Translations under genes and position numbers: made by a program
Assembly (NCBI GenBank): GCA_010671905.1
Contig: JAAHII010000001.1
Location: 1,674,001 to 1,738,000 of the forward strand
DNA from: Leptolyngbya sp. SIOISBB
GTDB lineage: Bacteria; Cyanobacteriota; Cyanobacteriia; Phormidesmidales; Phormidesmidaceae
Direction of reading: 5' to 3'
Length of the DNA stretch: 64,000 bases
Notes under the pieces: generated by a model
Databases searched by the model: none
Told to the model about the DNA's origin: nothing
Seen by the model: only the letters and a program-made list of their open reading frames with translations
Shown: piece after piece, positions 12,268-22,630 of the stretch
How positions within the stretch are numbered: position 1 is the stretch's first letter
How the letters are laid out: each line of letters begins with the position of its first letter

Positions 12268-13873
12268 CTAGTCTTCGACAATGAATTCCATCAGCCGTCC
12301 TTGAGGACTCCCAAAGCGCAGTCGGGTACCGGATTGCAAGCAGATTTCTTGACGATGCAGTTGCTGCCACTCATCTGTTTGCTGACAAAAAGTCCCGTAG
12401 CGGGAATCGTCTCTCAAGTAATAAGCGACAGACTTTTTCTGCCCCTGGGTCTTTAGCTTGTCGACAAAAGATCTCAGCATGATTACCCGAAACCCAGGGT
12501 TCGGGAATCACCACATCGTTCTCAGGGCGACGACCGATGCGGAGCATGCCGCCATAAAGGTACCAAGCTAAATGCGGCTCATCCACTGCCCGAATAACCG
12601 CAATCGGGCTATTAGGGCAGGCTTCGCCTGGCAACCGAGTAATATCGGCGTCTTGATCGGCCAACACCTGGCTATCAAAATCGGGATGTCGATACAAAAC
12701 CGGCAGAGTCCAAGCGGGCTGATTGAATTTGTAGAGGGTCAGCAGATGTTGACGGGCGATCGCGATGGCCCGATCAACTGGGTTGCGCTCGGCCAAAGCT
12801 TGAGCAAACACTTGAATAAAGCTTAAGGCTTCATCGTCTGCGATCGCATCACGCATGGCAATCACCGCCGGTACACCATGGTGTAATAATACTTCGGCTA
12901 AGCTACTACGGGCCATGGGGCGCTGGTCTTGCTGGTCAGGGCGAGCACCCCAGCAGGTATTAAACACCGCCAATTTCACCTGATTGAGTAGCAGCAATTG
13001 GGCGAGTTCTGTACCGCTTAAGGTCGATTCAGCTTGCAGATAAATCAGGCCCCCATCCGGCGCCGGAATGCCATGTCCGGCATAAAAGAAGACGTTGTAC
13101 TGACCCTTATCAATCGTCTTGATCAACTCACTGGCCGGCGGCCGTACCAGCACATCAACCCGGCATGGAGCCGCCATCCGAGCGCTCAGACCCGATGTCC
13201 CTTCGCCGCTCAAAACCCGCTTGAGGAGATCGGCTTCTGATTCGAGCTGTAGAGTATCGGCCGCATCACGATCGCCGGGCACGTCGGGTTCTCCGAGCAC
13301 CAGCAAGACACTGAGAGCCTGATCGAGAGTGATGTCAGCCAGGGGATCAACATCACTGGTGGTACGACTAAACCGAATGTAGTCATTCAACGACATGGCT
13401 TGTCGGCCTGATTGAGGCTGCATGATTTCCCACGGCAAGCCGATCAGGTCAGGATCCCGAATATCCAGACAGAGCGACAGCGGATTCCCCTGGCCCATCG
13501 CAATACCTAAACTATGGTCAAGGCTGCCTTTAATCGCCCCAGCAAATAGCCACTGCCAGAGTTTGACGCCAAGGGTTTGCATCAACCGGCCAGAATACCC
13601 TTGCACACCCCCATCGGGGGATTTCAGCAGTTCGGGAGTCACCACCTGAGGTACATAGGAGGTCGGGACATGGGGCACAGGTGGTAGCCCCCGTAGCGAA
13701 AAGAGCTCTAGCCAGCTTTGCCAGAGCTGATTGAGTTCATCAGACCAGGGGCGATCGTGATGCACATAGCCGCCAGGGTAAGGGGCTTCGACCACCCAAA
13801 TCGCATAGTGAGGAGTTTCAGCATTTGCCAGACGCTCAATGGCAATACGCAGGCGGGTAGGCTCTGACATCAA
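12268..13873 (-). CDS. CHAT-domain protease fused to FHA domain, frame broken
   Basis: Corrected length 534 residues. The CHAT (caspase HetF-associated with TPRs) domain spans roughly residues 90-410: FFYAGHG supplies the catalytic His (residue 267) and FNTCWGA the Cys (residue 307). From about residue 440 an FHA phosphothreonine-binding domain follows: GMLRIGRRPENDVVIP, then SGNHAEI, YYLRDDSRYGTF. The frame breaks inside the FHA in the T5 run at 12434-12438 (A5 on the coding strand); deleting one base joins both halves exactly. It lies just downstream of a PP2C phosphatase on the same strand, suggesting a phosphorylation-dependent protease circuit. Targets are unknown. Confidence 0.85.
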
Positions 13874-13975
13874 AAACCGCTAGAGTCAAAACAAGGGGAC
13901 GGGGTAGATGCTCCCTCAGGGTTTCCTTACTAGGCACGACCCATTAGGACGGCTCCGGAATCATTTCAAACATCG

Positions 13976-16225
13976 TTAGTCAATACACAATCCCTGTTGA
14001 GGGATAGATGTGTCAAGTAACGGGCTGGTTAAGGTGGAAACATCTGATTGGAGCAACCAACCTTGATCGCCCGGCAAGGCCGGTGGTAGGGGCAGATTAC
14101 TCGTGGTATCAGTCACTGCCGAGGGACTAGACGCAGACTCATCGACTGCTTGGGCGGGGCTTGGCGTCGCCGCTGAACAGACTTGTAAGCGCACCCACAG
14201 CTGTCCATCAGGGATCTGTTGACGACTCACCACCTGTACAACACTCTGCGCTGATAATAACCGTTTGGGCAGATCAACCGCATTGGGTGGGGCCGTGGTC
14301 GGTGGCGATGTCGTCGTGATGAGAATAGCGGTAGCCGTGGGATCAGACAGTTGATTGACTAGCCGGTAATCGCCGACAGACAAGCTGTCAATCGATGGCT
14401 CTTCGGTGGCCGGGGGCGGTGCCGAAGGCGACAGAACAGTGCCTTCAGGGTTATCTGATGCATTGATGGTGGTGGCTGCGCGACGCTGCCACCACTGCCA
14501 CCCCAGGGCACCAACAATGCCAATGAGGCCCGCCACCAACACACTGGTCATCACGAGTGGCCACCCTCGAGATTTTCCCGACGGCACTGATGAGGAGCGC
14601 ACGGTAGTGGGCGTTGGCATCACCGCAGGCGCCGTCACCGGACGAGCGGTAACGTCTGGAACGGCTCGGTGCAAAGCCGCAACGAACTGTACGGGCACTG
14701 GCGCGATCGCCAGCACGGATTGAGGACTCAGCCGCAATAACCCCACCGTCACGTTGTCATGGCCATTGTGGGTATTGGCTAAAGTAATCAGTTGCTGAGC
14801 GGCCTTCGCAACATCGCGATCGCCCTGCAACACCGGTAACAGCTCTGATGACCAAAGTTGGTCGACCAAATCGTGATCGCTCAGACCATCCGAGCAGAGC
14901 AAAATCAAACTATCTGCAGCGATGGAAAAGAGTTGGACAGTGGGATGTAGATGGCTCGTAGCGGCCATCCCCAAAGCTTGAACTAAGGCTCCTGATCCAG
15001 GATGTCGCAGCGCTTCCGAATACAGTTCTAGGCCCAAGCGCATATCTCGCACTGCCACGTCATCATCCAGGGTTAGCTGACGGCAGTTGTGAGATCGCAC
15101 TCGATAGGCCCGGCTATCGCCCAAATGCGCCACATAGAGACGCCCCCGGTGCACCAGTGCCAGGACAATGGTCGTCCCCATACGGCCCCGTTCTCGCCGG
15201 TGATCAGCATCGTTCCGTTCGGTGATAACCTGGTTAGCGGTCAGCAAGGCCTCCTTGAGCGCCTGCACAATTTCCGGATGAGCCGCGTCATTGCGCACGA
15301 GCCATGGTTGTAGCGCCTGGGTTACTTCAGCGATCGCGCTGTACGAGGCCACATCCCCCCCTTCGTGGCCCCCAACGCCATCACACACCACGAGCAGCGG
15401 TGCGGGCGTCAGTTGATGGTCAGTCTCCGCCTGCAACCCCATCGCTTGAGCAGTGCCACTGGGCGGAAAACAGGCATCTTCGTTGCGTTGTCGAGTCGGG
15501 CCCTGATCAGAATAGGCGGCGAGCTGCACCTGCATTGGGCACTGGGCCGCTTGCTGCTCTAACGCTTGAGCAAGAGAGTGGATTAGGCCGCCGATGTGGC
15601 CCTGCCCGGCCATCAACTGCTGCGTTAATTGCGTCAAATACTCCCGAATAGGCCGAGCCGCAGTTGCGACGAGTCCTTGCCAGTGCTGGCCTAAATCGCT
15701 TAAAGCGGGGGGCACCTGACTCACCGATAAAGACAAGAACCGTACATCTTCGCCATCGACCCGTACCAGCTGCTGATCCAAAAGACAATGAGCCACTTGC
15801 TGATCAAGGCAGGGCTGCCAAAGCTGAGCCACTTGCCAAAGCCAGGTTAGCTGCACGATCGCGGCGGCCTGAGGCCAAGCCTTTAGGAGAGTCGGCAGCA
15901 GTACCGGAGCCGTGTCTGAATGAGGCTGGCCTTGTAACGGCACCTCTTCGAGCAGTAACAGTGGCGTTTGACCGTCAGGATGCAATACCTGCGTAAACGG
16001 TCGGGGAATCGCCATCAAGTAAGGCGATAACGCCAAATAGGGCAGCGCTGCCTTGGGCACTGCTGGCAACGGCGGTGGCGCTAACTGAGGCTGTGTGTCT
16101 AACAGTAGGGGAAACTGGATGACCCGATAGCGCTGTGCCAGGTAACTGCCTGCAGGCAAGGGCGCGTCAACGTCTCCTTGAGCCCACAGATAACGGTGCA
16201 CCAGCGGCAATTGCGAATTCGGCAT
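13976..16225 (-). CDS. Membrane-anchored PP2C/PPM serine/threonine phosphatase
   Basis: 749 residues. The N-terminal 235 residues have no recognised domain, though they may be a degenerate kinase-like or scaffold region. The PPM phosphatase spans about 237-495 with metal-binding motifs RNEDACF, VCDGVGGHEGG, GTTIVLALV, HLGDSRAYR, LCSDGLSD and HDNVTVGLL. A single membrane helix follows at about 553-579 (WPLVMTSVLVAGLIGIVGALGW), then a Pro/Thr/Ser-rich 170-residue region probably outside the cytoplasm. The ATG at 16225 is chosen over an upstream in-frame start because residues before it look non-coding. It precedes the CHAT-FHA gene by about 100 bases, likely in one operon. Confidence 0.88.
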   Translation of the reverse strand: MPNSQLPLVHRYLWAQGDVDAPLPAGSYLAQRYRVIQFPLLLDTQPQLAPPPLPAVPKAALPYLALSPYLMAIPRPFTQVLHPDGQTPLLLLEEVPLQGQPHSDTAPVLLPTLLKAWPQAAAIVQLTWLWQVAQLWQPCLDQQVAHCLLDQQLVRVDGEDVRFLSLSVSQVPPALSDLGQHWQGLVATAARPIREYLTQLTQQLMAGQGHIGGLIHSLAQALEQQAAQCPMQVQLAAYSDQGPTRQRNEDACFPPSGTAQAMGLQAETDHQLTPAPLLVVCDGVGGHEGGDVASYSAIAEVTQALQPWLVRNDAAHPEIVQALKEALLTANQVITERNDADHRRERGRMGTTIVLALVHRGRLYVAHLGDSRAYRVRSHNCRQLTLDDDVAVRDMRLGLELYSEALRHPGSGALVQALGMAATSHLHPTVQLFSIAADSLILLCSDGLSDHDLVDQLWSSELLPVLQGDRDVAKAAQQLITLANTHNGHDNVTVGLLRLSPQSVLAIAPVPVQFVAALHRAVPDVTARPVTAPAVMPTPTTVRSSSVPSGKSRGWPLVMTSVLVAGLIGIVGALGWQWWQRRAATTINASDNPEGTVLSPSAPPPATEEPSIDSLSVGDYRLVNQLSDPTATAILITTTSPPTTAPPNAVDLPKRLLSAQSVVQVVSRQQIPDGQLWVRLQVCSAATPSPAQAVDESASSPSAVTDTTSNLPLPPALPGDQGWLLQSDVSTLTSPLLDTSIPQQGLCID

Positions 16226-16327
16226 ATGGGGCGATCGCCTCAAGCATCGGGAACTGAGTGGGGGTAACAAAGCCCTCACTCAAGATACGAAATTATGCCA
16301 CAGCTATCGGCAACGTTGGCACGATCG

Positions 16328-19035: not shown

Positions 19036-22000
19036 ATGGTTAAGGTGCAAAATCGCTCTTTATTCGTCTTGGTATTAGGGGTAGCCTGCCTTGCCCCACC
19101 GGTCTTAGCTGACTCCGGCGCGGCCCGCTTGGCTCAAGCGATCGACAACCCCGATACGGTTGACAATCCCGAAACTGAGGCGGCACCCGCCCCCACATCG
19201 CCAGAAACGACGGCTGGAGATGCGACAGCACCTGTTTTCAAGGCTCCTGCTGATGGTTTAGCGGCAGGGGCCAGCCTCACGATTGAGGGATCCTCTAGCA
19301 TGTCGACCATTACCCGATCGCTGGTACAAGCTTTTGAACAAAAGTATCCCAATGCCAGCGTGACGGTGGTTGAGCAACCCTCGGAAATCGCGCTCCAAAA
19401 TTTGCAGGCCGGCAAAGCTGAACTCGTCGCGATCGGTCGGACCCTCACGGATGAACAAAAAGCCGCAGGGTTCATACCTGTCTCAGTCAGCCGCGAAAAA
19501 ATTGCCGTCATCATCGGCGCTGACAATCCGTTTACCGGACAGCTAGAGGCCACCGATTTTGTCAATATTTTTTGGGGAACGGTGACCAACTGGCAGCAGT
19601 TAGGCGGTCCCGATCTCCCCATTCGCTTCATTGATCGACCAGAAACGAGCGATACCCGAGTGTCTTTAGGGGAATACGAAATTTTTGGGGGTGACCTGAG
19701 TGCTGGTGAAGGGGGCGTCCCCGTGGCAGAAGACAGCACTGCTGAAGTGGTTGCGGCCTTGGGGGACAACGGGATTGGTTATGCGATCGCCAGCCAAGTA
19801 TTAGATCAGGAGAATGTCCGAGTATTGCCGATGTATGGCACCACTCCAGACGATCCCCTCTATCCCTACTCGCAACCCCGTAACTATGTGTATCTGAGCA
19901 GTACGCCGCTATCACCGACAGCCGAGGCATTTCTAGCTTTGGCGACAGATTCTGAGGGGCAAGCCGTCGTCGAAGAAGCCAAAGCGGCCGAAGCTGCTGA
20001 GGTTGCCGTCGCCGATTTGCCAGACCAGATATCGGCTGTTCGACCGGACGGTCAGGGATTTGTGACCGGCGATCGCGAGGGCAACCTCAATTTTTGGAAT
20101 GCCGATGGCACGTCTGGGAGTGACGCAGTGCCGGCCCATACTGGCCCCATCACCGCGCTCGCATTTAGTCCCGACGGTCAACGCCTCGTCAGCGGGGGCG
20201 CTGATAGCACCGTGCGCTGGTGGGATGCAGCAGGAGCACCGGTGGGCGATCCCATTAATTCTGGAAATGGCCCCGTCACTAGCATCGTGATGCAACCCGA
20301 CGGCAGCTTTTTCAGCGCAACCAACAGCGGAGTCTGGCAACGATGGGATGCAGAAGGCAATCCCGTTGGTGACGCGATCGCTGGCCACGAAGGAGCTGTA
20401 CGAGATATGGTCCTGAGTCCTGATGGCAACACCCTAATTACCAGTGGTGATGACGGCACCATTCGCCGATGGAACGTGGCTGATGGGACTCCGCAAGGTG
20501 CGCCCCTCACGGGGCATCAAGGCCCCGTACAAGCATTATCCGTACAGCCCGATGGGAGGATCTTTTCTGGCGGGGCCGACAATACGGTGCGGCAGTGGGC
20601 GCCAGATGGCACCCCCATTGGGGAACCCCTCACCATGCCTGGCCCCGTCAATGCGATCGCCACGAATGCTGAAGGCAACAGCATTGCGGTAGGAGATGCC
20701 ACTGGCGCGCTGCAATACCTCTCCGGTGACGGCGTACCGGTTGGCGAACCACTGACTGATGTGGGTGCTCCGGTAGATGATCTGGCTTTCACCCCTGATG
20801 GGCAACAACTGGTGGTGAGTGCTAGCGATGCCCCACAATTGCGCGATAGTACGGGGCAAATCATTGCGGGCTCTGACTCGGGGACAGACAGTGCAACTAG
20901 TGATGAGACGGTGGGCAATCTCCCCCCTCAGTTGCAGGATTTTTGGACACAGTTACAGGGCTTACCGCCTCAAGTTTTGTGGATTCTGCCCCTAGCGGCA
21001 TTAGCGCTGCTATTAATGGGACTGCTCCGCAGTTTCCGCCAAGAAGAAGAAGGCTTCATGGATGAGGATGACGTCACAGAACTTCCTCCAACCGAAACTG
21101 CTGTTGGGGCCGCCACTGATGTCGATAGTTTTGACGCTGACGATTTCTCCGCAGATGACTTTCAAGCCAGTGATGATCGGCAACCAGCCACAGAGCGCCC
21201 GACAACATCCGCTGCAGGCTTTGCCTCTGATATTGCTGCAGAGCCGCTTGATCCCTCATTAGCACAAGCAAAACAAACGTTGCAAGAAGGCGTGAGTCTC
21301 GGGAATGCCGGGCGCTATCAAGCGGCGTTGGACAACTTCAATAAGGCGATCGAACTCGCCGATCTGGAGCGCTTGAAAGCCGCCGCGGCTGGAACCACCC
21401 TGGTTGGGGCCAGTGCCGTCATTGCTCGTGGTTTAGCCCGTCGAGGCTCCGCCTTGGCCAATTTGGGCCGCTCTGATGAAGCACTCAAAAGCCTGAATCG
21501 AGCTTTGGAAATGGATCCCAACGACGCTGCGGCTTGGATTGGCAAGGGCAATGTCTTTATTCCCATGGGACAACTCGATGAAGCGCTCTTTTGCTTTGAT
21601 AAAGCGATCGAATTAAATCCGAATCTCGCGGCCGCTTGGCAAGGCAAAGGCAAAACCCTGCAAAAAATGGGGCGCGATGCCGAAGCCCGCAACTGTTTCC
21701 AGCAGGCAGAATCCCTAGGAAGAATTAGTGAAGACATTCCTCTCGACTTAGGGACGCCAGCGGTTACACCGCCAGCAAATCGTGCTTCCGGAGCAAGAGA
21801 CACCAGCGATCAAGCAGGGACAAAGTCATCTGAGCCTTCCTCGTCGAGTCTAGCAATAGAACCCGATCCTCTGTCTGCAACCATTCCAGCAGCGGACGAC
21901 GATTTGCCGTTACCACCGGCATCGCAAATCACACCGACGCCCGCCGAGGCGGATCTGCCTTTAGATGCGCCCATCGGACCGATGGGGCTCACACCTTCTG

Positions 22001-22630
22001 AACCAGTGAGCCCACCGATTTCTGATGAACCATTATCGCCAGAGTTGTTGTCTGCCATCAGTGATCTGCCGCCAACAGATCAAACGATGGGAGATACCGT
22101 CATCCAGGTCGCTGCGGAGTCATCAACTGCGCCATCAATGATTACGCCTACGGAGCCGCTTCCAGACACCCCTGAAACCGCTGTTCCCGAAGAACTCTTG
22201 CAAGCGGTTGATACCTTGCCTTCAGAGCCAGAAGATGCCGATCCGAATTCACCTTTGACCAATCCCCTCAGCGTGCCGCCTGAGGTAGAAGCTATTCTGA
22301 CAGGGGATTCAGAAATTCCAGCAACCGAAGAAACGGCAATGAGTGCAGCCGCAGATCCCTTAGCGGCATCAGCGGCGGATGACACCACAGTGGCCCCTGA
22401 CATCATCATCGGCATCGGCAAACCGGGGAGTTGTGCCCGATCAACCTGCCCCCGAAGATGATGCGGCAGCATTAGCTGGGCTACCACCAGAGGTTTTAGA
22501 AGCACTTCAAAGCATTCCCGCTGATTCACCTGATAGTTTTGATTTACCAACAACTCCCACAACTCAGCCACCTTCCTTACCGGCCAATCCTCTAATTACT
22601 GATGAAGATGATGAAGACTTGTTGCCATAA
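19036..22630 (+). CDS. Phosphate-binding-like, WD40, transmembrane, TPR sensor protein; frame broken
   Basis: Corrected length about 1197 residues. A signal peptide (1-27) is followed by a type 2 periplasmic-binding domain of the PstS class at about 75-315 (SLTIEGSSSMSTITRSLVQA, GIGYAIASQ). Seven WD40-like blades span about 329-614, each with a PDG or EG turn (PITALAFSPDG, AVRDMVLSPDG). A membrane helix at about 644-665 precedes TPRs at 741-894 and a long acidic Pro-rich tail. With one membrane span the binding domain and propeller should be extracytoplasmic and the TPRs cytoplasmic. The start at ATG 19036 lies eight bases after GAGGAG. The frame breaks near the G4 run at 22424-22427; removing one base adds 67 residues of the same composition. 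Confidence 0.85.

Follow-up and report, generated by a model that had tools for sequence, protein, structure and literature searches.

What could a cyanobacterium do with one protein that joins a PstS-like periplasmic binding domain (PBP), a WD40 propeller, a membrane helix and TPRs? The gene for such a protein (the main ORF) lies in the 64,000-nucleotide stretch of Leptolyngbya sp. SIOISBB analysed here (the window; GenBank assembly GCA_010671905.1, contig JAAHII010000001.1, positions 1,674,001 to 1,738,000 of the forward strand). An earlier note, made from the DNA letters alone, interpreted the product as an anion or phosphate sensor that signals by assembly rather than by kinase activity. 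Both ingredients have precedents. Transmembrane receptors that work with a solute-binding domain, or contain one, are described in PMC9602780, and a survey records WD40 proteins in bacteria, with enrichment in cyanobacteria (PMC5587647).

Domains, topology and C-terminal end

The order of signal peptide, PstS-like PBP, seven WD40 blades, one helix, TPRs and acidic tail, as first read from the sequence, is confirmed in one ORF (19036-22461) by Pfam, hydropathy and AlphaFold2 (Table 1). Pfam matches were obtained for PBP_like_2 (PF12849; residues 77-305, E 1.7e-29, 103.8 bits against a cut-off of 27), WD40 (PF00400; E 2.1e-33, 113.7 bits) and TPR_1 (E 1.3e-25, 88.5 bits). Hydropathy analysis revealed two hydrophobic segments, one belonging to the signal peptide, of which the cleavage site was judged by eye, and one forming the membrane helix. 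No kinase, cyclase, methyl-accepting or other enzyme domain was found among the best 25 of 59 Pfam matches and all 25 NCBIfam matches.

Table 1 Features of the main ORF and its out-of-frame end (positions in the window)
Feature	Position	Strand	Remarks
Main ORF	19036..22461	+	ATG start at 19036, stop ending at 22461, 1141 aa; another in-frame start, TTG, 6 nt upstream
Sec-type signal peptide	19036..19110	+	Residues about 1-25; hydrophobic segment 8-26, mean KD 2.03; orthologues start similarly
PstS-like periplasmic binding domain (PBP_like_2)	19264..19983	+	Residues 77-316; anion loops changed: GSSSM, PSEIA, AIGR, DRPETSDTR
Seven-bladed WD40 propeller	20020..20847	+	Residues about 329-604; Pfam, repeat profile, AlphaFold2, VIA-align
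Single transmembrane helix	20971..21027	+	Residues 646-664; Arg residues directly behind (C-terminus inside)
TPR region	21316..21720	+	Residues about 761-895; four TPR_1 stretches; helical in AlphaFold2 model, modest confidence
Acidic Pro-rich cytosolic tail, main frame	21721..22458	+	Residues 896-1141; last part beyond the frame change
Tail motif copy	22033..22071	+	LSPELLSAISDLP
Tail motif copy	22183..22221	+	VPEELLQAVDTLP
C-terminal end of ancestral protein, out of frame with main ORF	22379..22630	+	Conserved motif LPPEVLEALQSIPADSPDSF at 22481-22540

Seven blades were counted between the PBP and the helix with a repeat profile, which was derived from a loose pattern and has only 4 seed repeats. 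Structure prediction of the full-length protein, proposed in the earlier note, was performed with AlphaFold2 on a 4-sequence alignment of the main ORF and three relatives. It gave a confident propeller (pLDDT mostly 82-93), a weak PBP and TPRs of modest confidence. In VIA-align comparisons residues 329-604 resembled the seven-bladed WD40 structure 2ymu (Z 38.8, rmsd 1.7, 282 aligned), the seven-bladed 7bie (Z 38.6) and the WD40 domain of PkwA, 5yzv (Z 36.4), and the propeller on which the first interpretation depended is thus retained in the predicted structure. The PBP part was poor in both AlphaFold models, made with 4-sequence alignments (mean pLDDT 45.8 when modelled alone), and its fold is therefore assigned from sequence homology.

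With a signal peptide ahead and one helix behind them, the PBP and the propeller are predicted to face the periplasm or the lumen, and the TPRs the cytosol. This topology, already proposed in the earlier note, is supported by the signal peptide, the single helix and the domain order, which is kept in orthologues. The propeller has the same fold as those of bacterial seven-bladed WD40 proteins (2ymu, PkwA 5yzv; Z 36-39). Its position between signal peptide plus PBP and membrane helix would, however, place it outside the cytoplasm; the terms 'periplasm', 'signal peptide', 'PBP' and 'TPR' are absent from the main text of the survey (PMC5587647).

The C-terminal end required a correction. The whole of 19036-22630 had been assigned to a single protein, but this stretch measures 3595 nt, no multiple of three; the main frame ends at 22461, and 22379-22630 is read in another frame. 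The tail in the main frame (residues 896-1141) contains 42 D/E, 8 K/R and 42 Pro among its 246 residues. The out-of-frame part represents the last ~65 residues of the ancestral protein. Its motif, LPPEVxxALxxIPxxSPDS, was found by pattern in 19 of the 20 distinct orthologues with a complete tail, and as a near variant in the other (L078), either near the end of the long frame or before DUF4912. When 29 genomes were searched for the motif, 11 had a match below 1e-6, a single one in each case and always at this gene; these matches lie within frames of 1137-1296 aa in all 10 other matching genomes and in an 88-aa frame in the genome of the window. A programmed frameshift was set aside because the motif stands in one long frame in the other matching genomes. 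The out-of-frame tail is either a real recent indel or a sequence error (one assembly), and if the indel is real the copy in the window may be impaired.

Another candidate origin of the tail motif, as a copy of the leader before DUF4912 in a soluble protein of the same genome, was dropped on shuffle and profile results. This protein, with an N-terminal Rho_N and without a PBP, is the only DUF4912 match of the genome (C1:2175376; L159:1162-2241). A leader profile was made from 9 soluble and 22 receptor leaders (of 21 soluble DUF4912 loci, 11 fitted the pattern and 9 were used). It scored above shuffles in L003 (3/500) and L004 (2/500) but not clearly so in the window (95/500, 44/500), nor in L005, L006, L007 and L010; the match in L009 (15/500) concerned another stretch. 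The profile of the tail motif (A5) had no site at the soluble Rho_N-DUF4912 protein at E <= 1.

Relatives in other cyanobacteria

In a search of 95 genomes, near full-length matches with 64-75% identity were found in the five other genomes of the genus. A search for the domain order had been suggested in the earlier note. A single ORF with the PBP, 6-7 WD40 repeats and then the helix was present in 28 genomes, each with a distinct protein; the window and all five other searched genomes of its genus are among them. The family of the window, represented in the search by 57 genomes, accounts for all but one of these 28; the relatives that bear a name are Halomicronema sp. CCY15110 and two uncultured Halomicronema MAGs. 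TPRs were detected by profile as well in L005, L007, L009, L023 and L011. These findings bear on the suspicion, raised in the same note, that binding and WD40 parts are separate genes joined by an assembly error. The out-of-frame tail of the window does indicate that sequence errors are possible; nevertheless, with one ORF in 28 genomes, an artefact of assembly or gene joining is scarcely conceivable for the multi-domain frame, and for the order PBP-propeller-helix-TPR it is already refuted. One relative, in genome G047, lacks the PBP altogether (see below).

Phylogenetic analysis of 86 PBP domains placed the window in a clade of 26 rows (support 99/93), all with a full propeller and all from one family. 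Full-propeller proteins outside this clade are L081 (G010), which shares the C-terminal tail motif (3.5e-7), and L119 (G219, another family). The propeller label needs three changes on the PBP tree; a single propeller clade was not rejected (p-AU 0.362). Cut or split ORFs (L015, L026 and L027, the last reading as two frames in an incomplete genome) were left out of alignments and trees, and the duplicates L008, L011, L028 and L031 out of the tree, the loop comparison and the propeller-clade test. In three proteins (L068, L073, L074) a gap of 154-161 residues ahead of the helix contains no more than one to three WD40 repeats; such half propellers might pair.

On its sequence, the PBP belongs to a cyanobacterial subfamily, defined here by DRPxxS-D-T-R, in which a helix and cytosolic modules usually come next. 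The main ORF has the DRPxxS-D-T-R PBP and the single helix, and no C-terminal DUF4912. In the class, 243 of 388 genomes had a match, and up to six, to a profile of 24 PBP rows at E <= 1e-40, no more than seven candidates being scored in each genome; this count overstates the fused type because it includes free Sll0540-type proteins (1e-72 to 1e-81 in a smaller search). Forty regions outside the family of the window, with frames over 640 aa, were hand-picked from the top-scoring listed matches; in this biased sample, with three ORFs cut by the fetched end, PBP_like_2 was present in 40/40, DUF4912 in 39/40, and an acetyl-CoA synthetase and a WD40 propeller in one each. Fourteen listed matches had frames under 560 aa and fell outside the 40. 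Of the nine that were checked, contig ends truncate four, of which three already show a helix; the other five run into a stop, in two cases behind the helix and in three without a helix in the stretch read. As these five all come from draft genomes, broken frames and truly unfused copies are indistinguishable among them. Of 90 rows, four of them duplicates, 80 have a helix segment behind the PBP or the propeller.

The proteins of the window clade have the PBP subtype and the single helix in common with the cyanobacterial PBP-helix-DUF4912 proteins, but differ from them in having a propeller ahead of the helix and TPRs behind it. Furthermore, the orthologues of the genus of the window end soon after the C-terminal motif and carry no DUF4912. 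In g12, a related genus, a C-terminal DUF4912 is present in the orthologue L023 by profile and in other rows by alignment. In the PDB, DUF4912 had just two matches (E 0.49 and 0.9), and in the literature searched, which comprised neither subscription papers nor preprints, the domain appeared only in one plant transcriptome paper.

Other members of the family carry DUF4912 arrays, an acetyl-CoA synthetase (L067:5300-9091 and L137:638-4843) or TPRs plus a phosphorylase (L063). L067 aligns with 2p20 across the whole enzyme, including the ATP loop and the C-terminal Lys region, which we take to be functional motifs of acetyl-CoA synthetase. Each of four f11 genomes (G099, G132, G066 and G112; 79-93% complete) has a single ACAS_N match, in a frame of 1286-1428 aa in three of them and of 570 aa in G112, where the adjoining PBP frame meets a stop. 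The protein of G079 (L063:5262-9737, minus strand) has the order PBP-helix-TPR-phosphorylase in one frame of 1493 aa, and G253:C304 has a phosphorylase in a 1484-aa frame; both genomes hold other phosphorylase genes too. In L063 the lysine of GTGNMK, the PLP site, is replaced by Ile, and this phosphorylase is therefore probably inactive.

Several further arrangements were observed. L064:3731-8812, also from G079, encodes 1693 aa with a PBP, a helix, a long coiled coil and HHH repeats. PBP-helix proteins with TPR arrays were seen at L069:2750-6322 (TPRs by eye) and L076:3161-6625, each adjoining a PBP-helix neighbour of over 1560 aa, with a DUF4912 array in L069. In L201 (G285:C144), a 400-aa frame, the S-D-T PBP runs straight into another stretch, which we presume to resemble a BrnT-type toxin.

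The ligand pocket

In PstS the S-G-T loop binds phosphate. The closest solved relatives of the PBP are PstS-type: the best PDB match of the main ORF is Sll0540 of Synechocystis (9l8j; 3.3e-43, 238 residues), with which it has the PBP fold in common by sequence, and 4gd5 matches at 6.8e-21. Compared with PstS and Sll0540, the PBP of the window has kept the GSxS loop, one Arg and, in the third loop, R, S and T; it has S-D-T where they have S-G-T. GST, Gly in the second loop, SSR or ASR, and SGT are found in six free cyanobacterial Sll0540-type homologues, in which nothing follows the PBP; the main ORF, in contrast, encodes a membrane protein of 1141 aa with S-D-T, GR and Ala.

These replacements recur throughout the family. 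They were counted in 87 fused proteins and in 9 free ones (the 6 of Sll0540 type and 3 from the genome of the window). At the position of the SGT glycine the fused proteins have D (78), S (8) or E (1) and never G, which is found in 8/9 free proteins. The residue before Arg (SSR changed to GR) is G in 84 and A in 3 fused proteins versus S in 9/9 free ones, and the second-loop position is A in 81, G in 4 and another residue in 2, versus G in 9/9. An Asp before R-P and an Arg after T are present in 87/87 fused proteins. Among 24 PBPs of the family no variation occurs in the R of GR, in D-R-P, in S or in the last R, and hardly any in the D and T of S-D-T. That the loops changed jointly and in a conserved way suggests that a different ligand, or a different mode of binding, was selected for.

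A sensor of phosphate or a phosphate-like anion, with the Asp of S-D-T as putative acceptor of the HPO4 proton, agrees with the PstS-type relatives and with the retained Arg, Ser and Thr of the third loop. It is nevertheless improbable, as the SGT, the SSR and, in 81/87, the second-loop Gly are replaced in fused proteins, and the main ORF scores 73.2 bits with TIGR02136 (PstS subfamily) against a cut-off of 206.6. The surroundings of the gene point the same way: no pst gene was present among nine neighbours scanned by Pfam (two without any Pfam match), and the window holds 36 Pho-box-like sites versus 29.6 expected (largest shuffle 47), which is not above chance. One weak Pho-box-like match (three mismatches, other strand) overlaps the gene start. 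The phosphate part of the earlier proposal of a phosphate or anion sensor is thus unsupported; another anion is a possible ligand.

Receptor, scaffold and gene neighbourhood

By a slight lean, the main ORF is best explained as a single-pass membrane receptor-scaffold with a putative periplasmic ligand that signals by cytosolic docking. The PBP would close on a small ligand in the periplasm, probably anionic or zwitterionic, and not bound as PstS binds phosphate. The propeller may serve as a periplasmic platform for protein contacts, coupling ligand binding to envelope proteins or to oligomerisation. The helix would relay the change to the TPRs and to the disordered tail with its motifs, and these would recruit cytosolic partners; the output would be assembly, not phosphorylation. 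This explanation is in line with the domain order and topology, the 26-row clade, the C-terminal motif found always at this gene, and the modular cytosolic outputs that relatives carry behind one helix. Pocket residues that are conserved and replaced jointly are moreover what is expected of a selected pocket. Against it stand some S-D-T PBPs without a visible fusion (among the nine short frames checked) and the relative in G047. As to signalling by assembly instead of by a kinase, the absence of an enzyme domain among the matches inspected fits this idea, which we still infer.

The G047 relative (L079:1967-4969, minus strand) is a 1001-aa frame in which WD40, TPRs and DUF4912 were detected by profile; inspection by eye adds a start like that of a signal peptide, a helix and tandem copies of a similar tail motif. 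PBP_like_2 was absent from the best 25 of its 33 Pfam matches (weakest 5e-6), and no ORF of L079 matched the PBP profile. Since propeller, helix, TPRs, tail and DUF4912 are kept without the PBP, ligand sensing appears dispensable in that lineage. Such a loss would also suit a purely structural scaffold, in which the PBP senses no more. The protein would then hold cytosolic complexes at a site in the envelope, on the plasma or thylakoid membrane, with the propeller as periplasmic anchor. Tethering fits the relatives that hang whole enzymes (acetyl-CoA synthetase, the phosphorylase without PLP lysine) on the same PBP base. However, the pocket loops are among the most conserved parts of the domain and are replaced in concert, unlike those of a decayed pocket, and this explanation is considered rather unlikely.

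A receptor-scaffold of the kind preferred here resembles receptors with a solute-binding domain in using that domain outside the cytoplasm for signalling. The accessible text of PMC9602780 treats kinases, chemoreceptors, cyclases and the like, and no propeller, TPRs or DUF4912 were seen there. Sensor kinases with a PBP as sensor domain differ from the main ORF, which has no cytosolic kinase domain among the matches listed above. No description of an S-D-T PBP receptor family was found in the titles and abstract openings searched (subscription papers and preprints excluded), and the family of the main ORF, widespread in cyanobacteria, is as far as found apparently undescribed. It is an even call whether many cyanobacteria carry single-pass receptors of a class not yet described, each with a re-engineered, non-phosphate pocket by which a cytosolic assembly is controlled or positioned. 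The assemblies would be DUF4912 modules, TPRs with linear-motif tails, acetyl-CoA synthetase or the phosphorylase lacking its PLP lysine, and the branch of the window would have added an extracytoplasmic seven-bladed propeller. If so, cyanobacteria would possess a widespread kinase-free route for signalling or scaffolding from envelope to cytosol, central carbon enzymes would be tied to an outside-facing binding domain, and DUF4912 would obtain its first context in these bacteria. The ligand could then be identified by single-domain binding screens, and an extracytoplasmic WD40 propeller would be available for study.

The gene order around the main ORF is conserved in the genus as far as the DNA reaches. 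In a promoter and terminator scan 1 and 3 sites were found, under the shuffle means of 2.8 and 4.0, and of 27 stretches that matched a pattern in a search for viral copies none was confirmed. By Pfam, the upstream neighbours are CHAT-FHA, PP2C, NdhM and radical SAM-CofH_C, and the downstream ones RsgA, DnaJ and HSP70; the directly adjoining gene on each side has no Pfam match. The two large signalling-type genes upstream, at 12371-16279, encode the CHAT-FHA protein and the PP2C phosphatase and are conserved in L032 and L033.
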